Positions 15,370 to 20,600 of a stretch of 32,257 nucleotides of DNA are shown piece by piece (position 1 is the first letter of the stretch; the number at the start of each line of letters is the position of its first letter). A program made the translations under genes and the position numbers. The DNA is taken from assembly GCA_018660825.1 (NCBI GenBank), contig JABJJO010000015.1, positions 1 through 32,257 on the forward strand, given 5' to 3'. Source of the stretch: Planctomycetaceae bacterium. GTDB taxonomy: Bacteria > Planctomycetota > Planctomycetia > Pirellulales > Pirellulaceae. The notes under the pieces are model-generated. The model searched no databases and was not told the DNA's origin. It worked only from the letters and a program-made list of their open reading frames with translations.

Positions 15370-15858
15370 CTACGTTGCGCGGCAATAGGTTTCGAAGGAA
15401 TATTCATGGTCGTTTTTCTCATCCGCCGAGTGGCGTGCGCTACTTTTACATTCCCAGGCCGACCAGTCAATGGTATCAAGCCGAGTGTCGCCTTCGACGT
15501 CGGCATGGACGCGAGTGATGTAAAGTGCATCAACGAGCGGCAGTGCTAAATTATAGATTTGGCTGCCACCGACAATAAACGTTTCGTGATCGTCGGCGGC
15601 AACCGCCAAGGCTTGTTCAACACTGTTGACAACGATCGCACCTGGAATTTGGTAATCTGATTGTCGGGTGATAATTACCGTGGTTCGTCCCGGCAGCAGT
15701 CGCCCAATGGATTCATAGGTTTTACGACCCATGACAATATGGTGTCCCATGGTCAAGGCTTTGAATCTTTTCAAATCCGCCGAGATGTGCCACGGTAAAT
15801 CCATCTCTCGTCCGATAATTCCATTTTGGGAAATGGCAACAATAATAGAAATGGCCAT
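15370..15858 (-). CDS. folA: Dihydrofolate reductase
   Basis: This 162-residue enzyme reduces dihydrofolate to tetrahydrofolate with NADPH. It begins with MAISIIVAISQNGIIGREMDLPWH, which includes the catalytic Asp20 and the Trp of the Met20-loop region. GRKTYESIGRLLPGRTTVIITR binds NADPH, and FIVGGSQIYNLAL and LYITRVHADVEGDT follow as usual. Length and order are those of standard bacterial chromosomal DHFR. It lies 36 bases downstream of thyA. ThyA produces dihydrofolate while making dTMP and FolA recycles it, so the pair forms a functional unit. Confidence 0.95.
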   Translation of the reverse strand: MAISIIVAISQNGIIGREMDLPWHISADLKRFKALTMGHHIVMGRKTYESIGRLLPGRTTVIITRQSDYQIPGAIVVNSVEQALAVAADDHETFIVGGSQIYNLALPLVDALYITRVHADVEGDTRLDTIDWSAWECKSSARHSADEKNDHEYSFETYCRAT

Positions 15859-15894
15859 TGTACTATCGCTAATACTTTTTGAACTTGATGGAAT

Positions 15895-16689
15895 TTAGAC
15901 AGCAACGGAGGCTTTAATGTGCGGATGGGGTTCGTAGTTATCTAGGGTGAAATCTTCGAACTTGAAATCAAAGATGTTCTTTACGTCTGGATTGATTCGT
16001 AATGTTGGCGAATTCAGCGGCTCGCGGGATAACTGTAATTCGGCTTGCTCGAGATGGTTACTGTAAAGGTGTGCATCGCCGAGTGTATGTACAAACTCGC
16101 CAGGCTGTAGGGATGTAACTTGAGCCACCATTAGTGTCAGCAGTGCATAAGAGGCGATATTAAATGGAACACCGAGGAACACATCGGCGCTGCGCTGATA
16201 CAACTGGCAGGATAGCTTGTCGTTGGCCACATAAAATTGAAATAATAAGTGACAAGGTGGCAGTGCCATTTTATCCACGTCACCGACGTTCCAGGCGCTG
16301 ACGATCAGACGACGAGAGTCAGGGTTGGATTTGATGTTTTCAACAACATTACTAATTTGATCAATGATTCGACCGTCCGTACATTGCCAACTCCGCCATT
16401 GGTGGCCATAGACTGGCCCGAGGTTTCCATCTTCATCCGCCCATTCATCCCAAATGCGAACTTTATTGTCGCGGAGGTATTGGATGTTTGTGTCCCCGGT
16501 TAAGAACCAGAGTAACTCGTGGATGATGGACCGCAGGTGCAATTTTTTTGTGGTAAGCAGCGGAAAAGAATCCGCCAGATCAAATCGCATTTGATGTCCA
16601 AATAGGCTACGAGTTCCAGTGCCGGTGCGGTCCTCTTTGACAGCACCGTGGTCGTAGATTTGCTGGATTAGATCGAGATATTGACGCAT
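15895..16689 (-). CDS. thyA: Thymidylate synthase
   Basis: This 264-residue enzyme methylates dUMP to dTMP using methylenetetrahydrofolate. Diagnostic parts are [15 protein letters not shown] at the N-terminus, [40 protein letters not shown], the nucleophilic Cys in [31 protein letters not shown] for nucleotide binding, and the C-terminal KASVAV. From the ATG at 16689 the length equals that of E. coli ThyA; a TTG three codons earlier is less likely. There is no clear Shine-Dalgarno sequence. It precedes folA on the same strand and follows the EF-P/EpmA genes after a gap of 132 bases. Confidence 0.97.
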
Positions 16690-16821
16690 TGTTGTCAAGT
16701 AAAAGAGACGATTGTATAGAGCCTATTTATGTTCGTAGTTTACCATGTTCGCCCGCTATTTGAACCCTAGTAGGGATCGCGTCACGGTGTCCGAATGATG
16801 GTGGTGTAGGCTTCTGCTGCA

Positions 16822-18099
16822 TCACGCACGATCGAAGGGGAAAGCGATTACTTCGGAGATGTCGGTGGCACCGATTGCTAACATCACTAAGCGGTCAAAC
16901 CCTAGAGCTACACCGCAGCAATCCGGTAAGCCACTTTGCATTGCCGTATCCAAATAGCTTTCCTGCGGTAATCGAGGCTGCCCATCTTGTTCGCGTAGCC
17001 GGTTGTTTCGATCGTTGCGTCGTCGCAATTCCTGAACGTCTAATAGTTCGTGATAACCGTTAGCCAATTCCAAACCGTGAAAAAATAGCTCAAAGCGATC
17101 AGCTACTTTTGGGTTGTCGGGGTGTTGCCGAGCTAACGCGGCTTGAGAAAGAGGGTAGTCGACCAAAATGGTTGGGACGTGTAGCCCCAGCGTCGGCTGT
17201 ACATATTCGGCGAACAGTAAATCAAGCCAGCCATCGCGATCCATATTGCGCCAGTTTTCAGGCGGTTGGAAATCTAAACCCGCAATGCAGTGCAACAATT
17301 TCTCGGTAGAATCTTCGAGCGGATCAATTTCTATGGCTGTCATGAAGGCCTGTTGATAAGAAATCGTTTGGTGGGTGTTGGTGGACAAAATGGTGCTTAC
17401 TAGAGACCCCAAGAAGGTGATGGCGTCACTCGTTGACCAGGATGTCCGGTACCATTCAAGTATCGTGAACTCTAGGTTGTGATGAGGCCCCTTTTCAGCG
17501 TGCCGAAATGCGCGCGTGATTTGGTAAATAGCCTTCATGCCGACTGTCAACAACCGCTTCATGTGAAATTCTGGTGAAGTTTGCAACCAATATGTTTCGT
17601 TATCGATACCTACCGGAATCGGAAACAAATGGCGGTCGACAACGGTATCTATTGAAAGTACGGGTGTTTCGACTTCATCAAATCCGTGGTCGTAAAAGAA
17701 CGCTCGGACGAGAACCAGAAGTTCGCTACGGCGTTGCAATGTAGAGAGGGCCGCGGTTGGTTGGAAATTGGTACGATGATTCTCGGAAATGTTCTCAGTC
17801 ATGTTTGGTAGTTCCAGCACAAATGAAAACTCGAGATCGGCAATTGTAATTACATCTCCGGGTTGTAGTGATACTGGATTGGTGAGTGGGTGGCCGTTTA
17901 TTTTTGTCCCATTGGCACTGTCGAGGTCCGAGATTGTGAAATGCGGGTCGTCGGCGACAAGCCGAACATGTTTGCGACTGACAGAGGGTAAGTTGAGGTG
18001 AACGTCACAATCAGCATCTCGTCCAATGACGTTGTTACCCAGTACAAGCTCGTAAGCTTGTCCGCGATCGAGTCCATTTGTGGCTAGCAGATAGGCCAT
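16822..18099 (-). CDS. epmA: FHA domain fused to EF-P lysyl-ligase EpmA
   Basis: This 425-residue protein joins two domains. Residues 1-95 are a forkhead-associated domain with all phosphothreonine-binding landmarks: GRD at 26-28, SVSRKH at 39-44, SANGT at 61-65 and NG at 68-69. Residues 100-425 are EpmA/GenX, a truncated class II lysyl-tRNA synthetase relative that attaches (R)-beta-lysine to Lys34 of EF-P. LQTSPEFHMKRLL, FRHAEKGPHHNLEFTILEWYR (motif 2), ELANGYHELLD and GVALGFDRLVMLAIG (motif 3) are all there, and the end VIAFPFDRA nearly matches E. coli. The EpmA part has the length of the complete E. coli enzyme, and Met100 falls where that enzyme starts. It lies 29 bases after the EF-P gene. 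Substrate and role are well supported; the role of the FHA part is inferred. Confidence 0.93.
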   Translation of the reverse strand: MAYLLATNGLDRGQAYELVLGNNVIGRDADCDVHLNLPSVSRKHVRLVADDPHFTISDLDSANGTKINGHPLTNPVSLQPGDVITIADLEFSFVLELPNMTENISENHRTNFQPTAALSTLQRRSELLVLVRAFFYDHGFDEVETPVLSIDTVVDRHLFPIPVGIDNETYWLQTSPEFHMKRLLTVGMKAIYQITRAFRHAEKGPHHNLEFTILEWYRTSWSTSDAITFLGSLVSTILSTNTHQTISYQQAFMTAIEIDPLEDSTEKLLHCIAGLDFQPPENWRNMDRDGWLDLLFAEYVQPTLGLHVPTILVDYPLSQAALARQHPDNPKVADRFELFFHGLELANGYHELLDVQELRRRNDRNNRLREQDGQPRLPQESYLDTAMQSGLPDCCGVALGFDRLVMLAIGATDISEVIAFPFDRA

Positions 18100-18128: not shown

Positions 18129-18701
18129 TTATTTTTGGTTTACACGTTCGACATAATCGCCGGTACGAGTGTCGACTTTGATAACATTTCCCATTTCAAT
18201 AAATGCTGGACAGAGAATCTCAGCCCCTGTTTCAACCGTAACAGGCTTGGTAACACTTGTTGCTGTGTCACCTTTGGCACCGGGTTCACAATATTCGACC
18301 TTTAACTCGACATGATTCGGTGGAGTTAACGTAATTGGATTTTCGTTCCAAAGTATGGCTTGGCATTTCATGCCTTCGGTTAAGTATTTCCAGTAGTCAC
18401 CCACCTGCTCGGCAGATAATTCATATTGGTCAAAATCAACGTTGTTCATAAAGACGAACGTATCGCCTTGTTTATACAAATATTGACACCCAACTTCCTC
18501 GACGTCTGCGGATTCGAGCGAATCGCCACCTTTATAGGTCCGATCCAAGATTGTATTCCGCAGTAAATTTCGCAGCTTGCATTTATAAAAAGCATTACCT
18601 TTACCAGGTTTTACAAAATTCATTTCGATCATCATGTACGGCTCGCCGTTAATTTCAACTCGCAAGCCCTTGCGAAAATCGTTAGTCTTATAGGTTGCCA
18701 C
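18129..18701 (-). CDS. efp: Elongation factor P (beta-lysylatable)
   Basis: This 190-residue protein is EF-P, which binds between the ribosomal P and E sites and rescues ribosomes stalled at polyproline. All three beta-barrel domains are present. The modification loop reads FVKPGKGNAF with the acceptor at Lys34, exactly the position modified by EpmA in E. coli. The lysine-type loop agrees with the neighbouring EpmA and EpmB genes, as opposed to the Arg32 of EarP-dependent EF-P. The C-terminus (VIKVDTRTGDYVERVNQK) is standard. The gene heads the minus-strand operon and is divergent from epmB across 94 bases. Confidence 0.97.
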   Translation of the reverse strand: MATYKTNDFRKGLRVEINGEPYMMIEMNFVKPGKGNAFYKCKLRNLLRNTILDRTYKGGDSLESADVEEVGCQYLYKQGDTFVFMNNVDFDQYELSAEQVGDYWKYLTEGMKCQAILWNENPITLTPPNHVELKVEYCEPGAKGDTATSVTKPVTVETGAEILCPAFIEMGNVIKVDTRTGDYVERVNQK

Positions 18702-18795: not shown

Positions 18796-19851
18796 ATGCC
18801 TTCGCCGTTATTACAGTCCAAACTGCTTCGAACCGAAAAGCCTAACCTAGAAATGGAAGTTGAAATTCCGATATGGCAACAAGAGATAAAAACAGCCTTT
18901 CGTTCAGCAGATGAGTTATGCCGGTTTTTAAACGTCGATCTCGACGAGATGGGGATTTCAGCCGCCGCCGCAAAACAATTTCCCCTGTTCGTGCCGCGGG
19001 GGTTTGCCAGTCGCATGGAAAGTGGAAACTCAACGGACCCACTGTTGCGGCAGGTTCTTAATGTGGCACAGGAAGAAGTGGTGGACGCTCAGTTTAAAGT
19101 TGATCCTGTGGGGGAATCACAGGCAGACCTTGCGCCAGGGTTATTACAGAAATATGCGGGCCGGGCACTGCTGATTGTTACCGGTGTTTGCGCCGTACAT
19201 TGTCGTTATTGTTTCCGGCGGCATTTTCCCTACCAGTCGTTTCAACAAATAGGTGCCGCCGCTGGCCGTTGGCAGCCAGCATTGGATGCTGTGCGCAGCG
19301 ATGAGAGTATCCATGAGTTACTACTCAGTGGCGGAGACCCATTGGTGCTGACCGATGATTTGTTAACAGAATTAATAACCATGCTGGAGAATATCCCACA
19401 TCTCAAACGCTTGCGGATCCATACTAGGACGCCCATTGTGATACCATCACGTGTCACGGAGGCATTAGTGAATCGCTTGGTCTCCAGTCGACTGGCCGTT
19501 TGGTTTGTGGTTCATGCCAATCATGGCAATGAACTCGGAACAGAAGTACTGGATTCGCTTAACCGGCTTATTGCAGCAGGAATTCCCGTGCTCAATCAGA
19601 CGGTACTTTTGAAAGGCGTGAATGATTCGTGCGAAGCTTTAGAAGAGTTGTTTACTAAGCTGGCTGATGCGAGCGTGTTGCCCTATTATTTGCATCAACT
19701 GGATCGAGTAGCTGGCGCAGCACATTTCGAAGTGCCGATCGAAATCGGTAAGCAGTTGATTGCGCAACTACGAACGAGATTGCCGGGATATGCGGTTCCG
19801 CGCTATGTACAAGAACGTCCGGGAGAGTTGGCAAAAACGATACTAGGGTAA
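18796..19851 (+). CDS. epmB: EF-P (R)-beta-lysine-forming lysine 2,3-aminomutase
   Basis: This 351-residue radical SAM enzyme isomerises L-lysine to beta-lysine, the substrate EpmA attaches to EF-P. The cluster-binding motif is Cys132, Cys136 and Cys139 in CAVHCRYCFRR. SGGDPLVLTD follows and binds the cofactors. Near the C-terminus, VPRYVQERPGELAKTILG holds Lys347, aligned with the PLP lysine of E. coli EpmB. Length is close to E. coli EpmB (342) and lacks the C-terminal oligomerisation part of clostridial lysine aminomutases. With efp and epmA directly across the divergent promoter region, the EF-P assignment is strong. No Shine-Dalgarno sequence is visible, and AT-rich -10-like bases (GATACTATAACC) touch the ATG, so the transcript might be leaderless. 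Confidence 0.93.
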   Translation: MPSPLLQSKLLRTEKPNLEMEVEIPIWQQEIKTAFRSADELCRFLNVDLDEMGISAAAAKQFPLFVPRGFASRMESGNSTDPLLRQVLNVAQEEVVDAQFKVDPVGESQADLAPGLLQKYAGRALLIVTGVCAVHCRYCFRRHFPYQSFQQIGAAAGRWQPALDAVRSDESIHELLLSGGDPLVLTDDLLTELITMLENIPHLKRLRIHTRTPIVIPSRVTEALVNRLVSSRLAVWFVVHANHGNELGTEVLDSLNRLIAAGIPVLNQTVLLKGVNDSCEALEELFTKLADASVLPYYLHQLDRVAGAAHFEVPIEIGKQLIAQLRTRLPGYAVPRYVQERPGELAKTILG

Positions 19852-19940
19852 TACGATATTAACAAGTGTCCTAGGCCGTGGTGGACAACACGAAGACCAG
19901 CCTTGATGTAGTCCTGAGATACGGAGAAAGAATTAGATTG

Positions 19941-20600
19941 ATGAGTTTAGAACGAGTGTTAGAACCGGAAGTTATGGATACGTTAGCTGAAGCCCATGAC
20001 TATGATCGCATGGACCACAGTGGCGTTAACCAAGCCTTTGTTACTGATCTGCTGCAGACAGGCGATATTGGAATGGAAGTTTTAGACCTTGGAACGGGCA
20101 CAGCGCAAATACCTGTAGTATTGTGCCAGCAGGATCCGCATTGCCGAGTGATGGGGATTGATTTAGCGGCGCATATGCTCGATCTGGCTCGATACAACAT
20201 CGAAGTTGAAGGCTTCACGGAGCGCATTTTTTTGCAGCAAATTGACTCGAAGGATTTGTCGATGGAATCTGAATTGTTTGACACGGTGATGTCCAATAGT
20301 ATTATTCACCACATTCCTGAGCCACTCGTAGCGCTTACCGAAGCTGTACGAGTGGCTCGTATTGGCGGGTTGTTGTTCTTCCGTGATCTGATGCGACCGA
20401 CAACTGATGAACAGGTTGTTGCGTTGGTACAACAATATGCTGGCGACGAAAATGACCACCAGCAACAGATGTTTGATGATTCATTGCGGGCAGCGTTGAG
20501 CTTAGCGGAAATCCGCCTATTGATTAGCTCGCTAGGATTTGACGACGCAACGGTGCAGCCCAGCAGCGATCGCCATTGGACTTGGATAGCGCGTAAATAA
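19941..20600 (+). CDS. Class I SAM-dependent methyltransferase
   Basis: This 219-residue protein has a Rossmann-fold methyltransferase core: VLDLGTGTAQIPVVL (motif I), MGIDLAAHMLDLARYNIE (motif II), FDTVMSNSIIHHIPEP (motif IV region) and an RIGGLLFFRDL strand. The substrate is unknown. The DYDRMDHSGVN segment before the core resembles planctomycete relatives that I know only as uncharacterised methyltransferases. I place the start at ATG 19941, where the conserved MSLERVLEPEVMDT begins, with GGAG 14 bases upstream. A GTG at 19878 would add 21 unconserved residues. It follows epmB by 89 bases on the same strand and may be co-transcribed. Confidence 0.8.
   Translation: MSLERVLEPEVMDTLAEAHDYDRMDHSGVNQAFVTDLLQTGDIGMEVLDLGTGTAQIPVVLCQQDPHCRVMGIDLAAHMLDLARYNIEVEGFTERIFLQQIDSKDLSMESELFDTVMSNSIIHHIPEPLVALTEAVRVARIGGLLFFRDLMRPTTDEQVVALVQQYAGDENDHQQQMFDDSLRAALSLAEIRLLISSLGFDDATVQPSSDRHWTWIARK

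Follow-up and report, generated by a model that had tools for sequence, protein, structure and literature searches.

The activation of elongation factor P (EF-P) by its beta-lysine ligase EpmA is generally regarded as a housekeeping reaction that runs constitutively. The gene described here, in which an EpmA is preceded in the same open reading frame by an FHA domain, raises the question of what a phosphothreonine-binding fold might be doing on such an enzyme. With a conserved phosphothreonine-reading module on EpmA, EF-P modification would become a step at which kinase signalling might exert control.

The window (the whole 32,257-nt stretch of DNA analysed) is an entire contig, one of 221 in a 4.94-Mb draft genome. 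The earlier note, which gave no strand, had described an intact open frame joining an FHA domain with the key residues Arg27, Ser41, His44 and Asn63 to a complete EpmA. We find this single frame on the minus strand, with all four residues present in the window protein and both domains scoring above curated cut-offs. The Pfam FHA model PF00498 matches residues 24-86 (E 4.9e-20, 72.2 bits, gathering cut-off 20.7), the EpmA equivalog TIGR00462 matches residues 121-420 with 333.5 bits (cut-off 286.9), and PRK09350.1 matches residues 109-425 with 323.9 bits (cut-off 264). Lysyl-tRNA synthetase (LysRS) models score far under their cut-offs on the same protein (PRK00484.1, 160.5 of 468 bits; lysS_bact, 157.7 of 427.6 bits). 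Nine such fusion proteins are known to us, one from each available genome of the genus, and the FHA match recurs at E 0.001 in 8/8 of them, the ninth, which contains N bases, having been left out. The features discussed are collected in Table 1.

Table 1. Positions in the window of the fusion gene, its parts and selected codons, and of neighbouring genes
Feature	Position	Strand	Remarks
FHA-EpmA fusion gene	16822..18099	-	425 aa, ATG start, stop included, no internal stop
FHA domain, residues 1-95	17815..18099	-	PF00498 match and modelled fold
Linker, residues 96-110	17770..17814	-	low pLDDT, weakly constrained
EpmA (EF-P beta-lysine ligase) catalytic domain, residues 111-425	16825..17769	-	TIGR00462, 3a5z
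TNGLD, residues 7-11	18067-18081	-	between first two FHA strands; invariant 9/9 including G121
Arg27 codon	18019..18021	-	kept 8/9; His in G121
Ser41 codon	17977..17979	-	kept 7/9; Asn in G240, Gly in G121
His44 codon	17968..17970	-	kept 9/9
Asn63 codon	17911..17913	-	kept 8/9; Asp in G121
Leu209 codon	17473..17475	-	HNPEF stretch reads HNLEF; Leu 9/9 fusion proteins, Pro 50/59 others, Thr in sister genus
Thr223 codon	17431..17433	-	helix start in model; Thr 9/9 fusion proteins, 0/59 others
efp, elongation factor P	18129..18701	-	GTG start, Lys34 in VKPGKGNA
epmB, lysine 2,3-aminomutase for EF-P	18796..19851	+	TIGR03821 409.3 bits (cut-off 369.3); divergent from efp
Class I methyltransferase gene	19878-20600	+	directly 3' of epmB, 26-nt gap
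thyA and folA	15370-16698	-	after fusion gene

The full-length AlphaFold model (mean pLDDT 83.2, 15 rows) predicts two folded parts, whose arrangement it does not fix, joined by a stretch of low confidence with pLDDT below 50 at residues 100-112. Residues 110-425 of the model superpose on 3a5z_A, E. coli GenX/EpmA from the structure bound to EF-P, with a Z score of 39.8 over 315 residues, 1.9 Å and 44% identity. Because this EpmA/LysRS-like part dominated the listed structure matches of the full model, the FHA part was folded separately (residues 1-105, pLDDT 83.2). On its own it models as an FHA, the outcome that the earlier note required of this region, matching the GarA chain 6i2r_B with Z 14.1 (88 residues, 2.2 Å), and also DgcB (6hbz_B, Z 14.0), 3poa_A (13.9), OdhI (4qcj, 13.4) and the EmbR FHA (12.9). 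The first FHA strand begins at residue 2-3 and 9/9 fusion proteins start with MA at the FHA; neither the alignment of the nine nor the models of the window protein show an N-terminal tail of the GarA/OdhI kind before the domain. The EpmA part is predicted to be a class II LysRS-like core without the anticodon-binding domain, residues 1-95 forming the FHA instead.

Alanine occupies the beta-lysine selectivity position, A398 in the window protein, which we take to correspond to the alpha/beta-lysine selectivity site A298 of E. coli, in 9/9 fusion proteins and in 58/59 other EpmA proteins, the one remaining row having a gap there; these site counts, like the pocket counts and EpmA trees below, exclude identical rows and EpmA rows scoring under 250 bits. 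On all the sequence and model features examined, the fusion gene is an EpmA whose FHA holds up in both fold and motif, and we infer that the protein has EpmA enzyme activity. Residue 382 is Tyr in 9/9 fusion proteins and Arg in 44/59 other EpmA. Together with residue 209 (Table 1), this site indicates that the catalytic domain was itself altered around the time of the fusion.

The gene sits among the other components of its pathway. The efp gene lies upstream of it by 29 nt on the same strand, Lys34 is present in the EF-P sequences of the genus that were compared, and with epmB the parts needed for EF-P beta-lysylation are therefore found side by side. Clustering of efp, epmA (yjeA) and epmB (yjeK) is reported for many bacteria in the available text of PMC2821294. 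A scan of 27 ORFs in the window yielded no kinase domain. The methyltransferase gene adjoins epmB in 7/8 genus loci, the eighth (L080) stopping within epmB at a contig edge, and it was not found in L084-L103 (E 1e-8) or in the sister-genus loci L201 and L202 (E 1e-5); it might act in the EF-P pathway.

Does the FHA read phosphothreonine? Residues R27, S41, H44 and N63, which we take to be those forming the FHA phosphothreonine pocket, align with identical residues in the FHA structures solved for TB39.8 (3po8) and Ki-67 (2aff), and all four occur together in 7/9 fusion proteins. One exception (G240, locus L078) carries S41N. The other (G121, locus L083) carries R27H, S41G, N63D and G64D, and an FHA domain is still present, scoring 143.4 bits against a genus FHA profile that includes G121 itself. 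The phosphate-reading role has probably been lost in this species at least, and since G121 is nested in the tree, the decay of its pocket is a later loss, which provides a natural comparison within the genus. Candidate kinases for making an FHA ligand are present, since PF00069 (kinase-domain) matches occur in all nine genus genomes, 14-48 in each and 48 in the window's own; the fewest, 14, are found in G121 and in G239, the latter a 69% complete genome in which the pocket is kept, and no weight is given to these low counts.

A phosphothreonine-reading module is supported by the predicted fold, the complete pocket in 7/9 proteins, the many kinase-domain matches and the purifying selection described below, and the proposal of the earlier note, that kinase signalling may recruit or control EpmA by way of the FHA, is plausible. 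Two findings count against it: the decayed pocket of G121 and the EF-P threonine comparison below. Our main reading, to which we give a probability of about 0.5, is that a working EpmA gained a phosphothreonine-binding FHA once, at the base of the genus, and that this domain docks EpmA to a partner phosphorylated by a Hanks-type kinase.

Some FHA domains bind partners without phosphate, and the FHA could instead be a structural or docking part of that kind, stabilising the EpmA dimer, contacting EF-P or the ribosome, or filling the place of the anticodon-binding domain, with a pocket that is mostly inherited. In LysRS that domain sits N-terminal to the catalytic core, which is where the FHA is found here. 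EpmA is without an anticodon-binding domain, according to the available text of PMC2821294. The well-scoring FHA that G121 retains with a decayed pocket also fits such a role, as does the TNGLD stretch at residues 7-11, in which four of the five sites vary among 25 SpoIIE-linked FHA domains compared. Better kept than the pocket, TNGLD suggests a second, phosphate-independent contact. Yet the FHA parts, 88-92% identical to the window's in its nearest relative, are only 33-53% identical in the other members, and R27, S41 and N63, if unused, would be expected to drift more widely than a pocket complete in 7/9 proteins allows. We therefore regard a purely phosphate-independent role as rather unlikely.

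Under the preferred reading, in which the FHA binds phosphothreonine, the domain would hold EpmA by the flexible linker to a partner that a Hanks-type kinase has phosphorylated on threonine, and the place or time of EF-P beta-lysylation would come to depend on kinase activity. GarA and EmbR use FHA domains to bind autophosphorylated kinases. The likeliest partner would be a kinase that has phosphorylated itself on threonine, and EpmA or EF-P would then be phosphorylated or kept close by; a mycobacterial pairing of this kind, GarA with PknB, is named in a title among the references of PMC6213207. Phosphorylated EF-P itself would be the next likeliest partner, as EF-P is a kinase substrate in Streptococcus suis, where the available text of PMC12595652 reports direct phosphorylation by STK at Ser148 and Thr176.

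A comparison of eight distinct EF-P sequences from nine fusion loci with 43 from other loci revealed no threonine that all genus members share and few other sequences have, and EF-P is thus rejected as a genus-marked ligand. The closest case, residue 134, is Thr in 5/8 genus sequences and 2/43 others, and Lys in the window's own. The threonines of EF-P domain III are common to relatives without the fusion. Because Thr146, Thr158 and Thr178 occur in 43/43 of the other sequences, and Thr148, Thr151 and Thr180 in 38, 37 and 34 of them, EF-P remains a candidate partner.

In GarA and OdhI, a phosphorylated N-terminal tail binds back to the FHA. Self-binding of this type is unlikely here, given the lack of such a tail and of any linker threonine common to all fusion proteins, and an outside partner is therefore preferred. 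It is possible, and we propose it only tentatively, that a kinase-made phosphothreonine, carried by a kinase, by EF-P or by a partner bound to the ribosome, is read by the FHA as a switch for EF-P beta-lysylation. If this is true, polyproline protein synthesis in this genus would in turn be under kinase control.

The kinase might also act on EpmA directly. The FHA would then serve as a dock for a Hanks-type kinase and EpmA would be the substrate, for example at Thr223, with phosphorylation altering its activity or enabling binding by its own FHA or that of a dimer mate. EmbR is an FHA protein tied to kinases. GarA and Rv1747 are further kinase-tied FHA proteins (named in titles among the references of PMC6213207), and the restriction of Thr223 to the fusion proteins (Table 1) is in line with such a site. 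Against this, Thr223 is retained in G121 despite the decayed pocket. Threonine is a common helix cap, and residue 223 stands at a helix start. The missing tail and the absence of a linker threonine shared by all members also speak against this reading. Thr223 is thus a lead only, and we consider EpmA as the kinase substrate improbable.

If, rather than docking EpmA to a phosphorylated partner, the FHA were a passenger without a role, fixed by drift or by loss of intergenic sequence, its coding sequence should tell. Of 36 pairs compared, only window/L077 and L082/L112 have trustworthy, low synonymous divergence, and in these the FHA gives dN/dS values of 0.13 and 0.12, EpmA 0.14 and 0.07, and the adjoining linker, which has few codons, 0.94 and 0.25. 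The remaining 34 are saturated or close to it, and many of them show more non-synonymous change in the FHA than in EpmA, as in window/L083 with 0.42 for the FHA versus 0.29 for EpmA. The values of 0.12-0.13 in the two usable pairs indicate that the FHA is retained by selection; the deeper pairs indicate that it is held less tightly than the EpmA enzyme. The loss of the pocket in one member and the finding of the fusion in one genus only would suit a passenger, but the low ratios next to those of the linker, and an FHA frame intact in 9/9 proteins, make this explanation very improbable.

How widely the fusion occurs was assessed by searching all 241 family genomes available with the fusion protein (thresholds E 1e-35 or 1e-40). 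In all nine genomes of the genus the match spans residues 1-425; identity to the window protein is 52-89% in the other eight, none of which has a stop. The earlier note had named an assembly error absent from relatives as one danger to its idea; the window is indeed one whole contig of a 221-contig draft, but the two-domain ORF recurs with the identical join in all nine genomes, which excludes chance or mis-assembly, and we reject an assembly or gene-calling artefact as having a negligible chance of being correct.

Among the other 232 family genomes, 221 match from residue 74 or later only, these matches to the fusion protein being taken as EpmA, and 11 have no match at E 1e-35. The FHA part is unmatched in all 221 in this local protein search, where the match start is that of a local alignment, so that a highly diverged FHA before another EpmA could escape, and where some matches are partial or at a contig edge (e.g., G118, G226, G193, and G003) with N termini outside view. 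The EpmA model scores over its cut-off in 140/149 family genomes sampled. Of 294 genomes sampled across the phylum, 48 had a match, and only the window's own genome matched from residue 1. Of 397 genomes sampled from the class, 224 had a match; among the matches listed, those starting at residue 1 came from three genomes, all of this genus. An order sample at E 1e-103 (396 genomes) gave seven matches, five from this genus and two starting at residues 110 and 111.

Scanning GTDB contigs with two peptide patterns, a procedure in which 80 of 139 relatives were kept and which is not a census of bacteria, returned eight fusion loci (L077-L083 and L112) among those 80, all already within the nine; they include Planctomycetaceae bacterium UBA2972, an uncultured Pirellulaceae bacterium and Rhodopirellula sp. 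NAT69. Across 156 loci, the genus FHA profile found no match on an EpmA frame outside the genus. At E 1e-3 it matched neither the proteins with early N-terminal matches (L087 and L100 from residue 68, L095 from residue 44) nor the long open frames that precede EpmA outside the genus (e.g., L091, L031, and L148), and these candidates were rejected.

Two EpmA trees, of 68 and 70 rows, group the fusion proteins in a single clade (support 99/94 and 99/96), whose sister is an FHA-less genus, g5 (99/92 and 100/97). There efp and epmA are nearly contiguous, with 8 nt from the efp stop to the EpmA domain. The simplest history would be that the FHA was acquired a single time, in frame between efp and epmA, in the ancestor of the genus.

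The source of the domain is harder to trace. Apart from the fusion proteins themselves, the best matches to the genus FHA among 30 relatives are FHA domains at protein N termini, mostly of FHA-GAF-SpoIIE phosphatases, an architecture verified by Pfam for eight proteins (L003, L166-L169, L171, L172, and L178). The window's genome encodes one of these phosphatases (L003:139-1809), which is the fusion's nearest FHA relative there by profile score, as well as an FHA-GAF-sigma54 activator (L004). An FHA tree of 49 rows, limited by the short domain and with 18 of 46 inner branches open, places the fusion FHA as one clade (91/90) outside the SpoIIE-linked domains. The genus's own FHA-GAF-SpoIIE phosphatase is thus not supported as the donor despite the highest scores.

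The fusion protein can be compared with several known systems. With EpmA/GenX/PoxA/YjeA of E. coli and Salmonella (3a5z, 3a5y, and 3g1z) it shares the full-length catalytic domain, the efp and epmB neighbourhood, the EF-P Lys34 and the selectivity alanine; known EpmA is a bare catalytic core with HNPEF, whereas the window protein has an FHA in front and HNLEF. GarA and OdhI of Mycobacterium and Corynebacterium resemble it in FHA fold, phosphothreonine pocket and a presumed link to Hanks kinases, but are single FHA domains, while the FHA of the fusion is tail-less and joined to an enzyme. In EmbR and Rv1747 an FHA is likewise attached to another protein as a control module. EmbR has a transcription factor as its effector and Rv1747 an ABC transporter, unlike the translation-factor-modifying enzyme of the fusion. 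The planctomycete FHA-GAF-SpoIIE phosphatases, most of which share the MAxL start and which supply the top-scoring FHA relatives outside the fusions, differ in their partner domains, and the fusion FHA is not nested among them.

The earlier note knew of no described link of this kind. This holds for the joined domains, as we found no report of an FHA-EpmA fusion or of phospho-control of EpmA in the literature searched, which covers part of the field, but not for a link between kinase and EF-P, which has been published for S. suis (PMC12595652). That system is alike in having a Ser/Thr kinase that targets the EF-P pathway and different in that EF-P itself is phosphorylated, and the available text of that paper mentions no FHA domain. 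In one analysis of a recent study, EpmA was taken to be a protein with tRNA-synt_2 as its single domain (PMC11611912, available text), a definition that would leave out the FHA-EpmA architecture and so create a gap in such surveys.

Gene order around the fusion also varies within the genus. The thyA and folA genes follow the fusion gene in the window and in L077, and lie beyond the methyltransferase gene, on the other side of epmB, in L078, L079, L082, L083 and L112, an arrangement that points to a local rearrangement within the genus.
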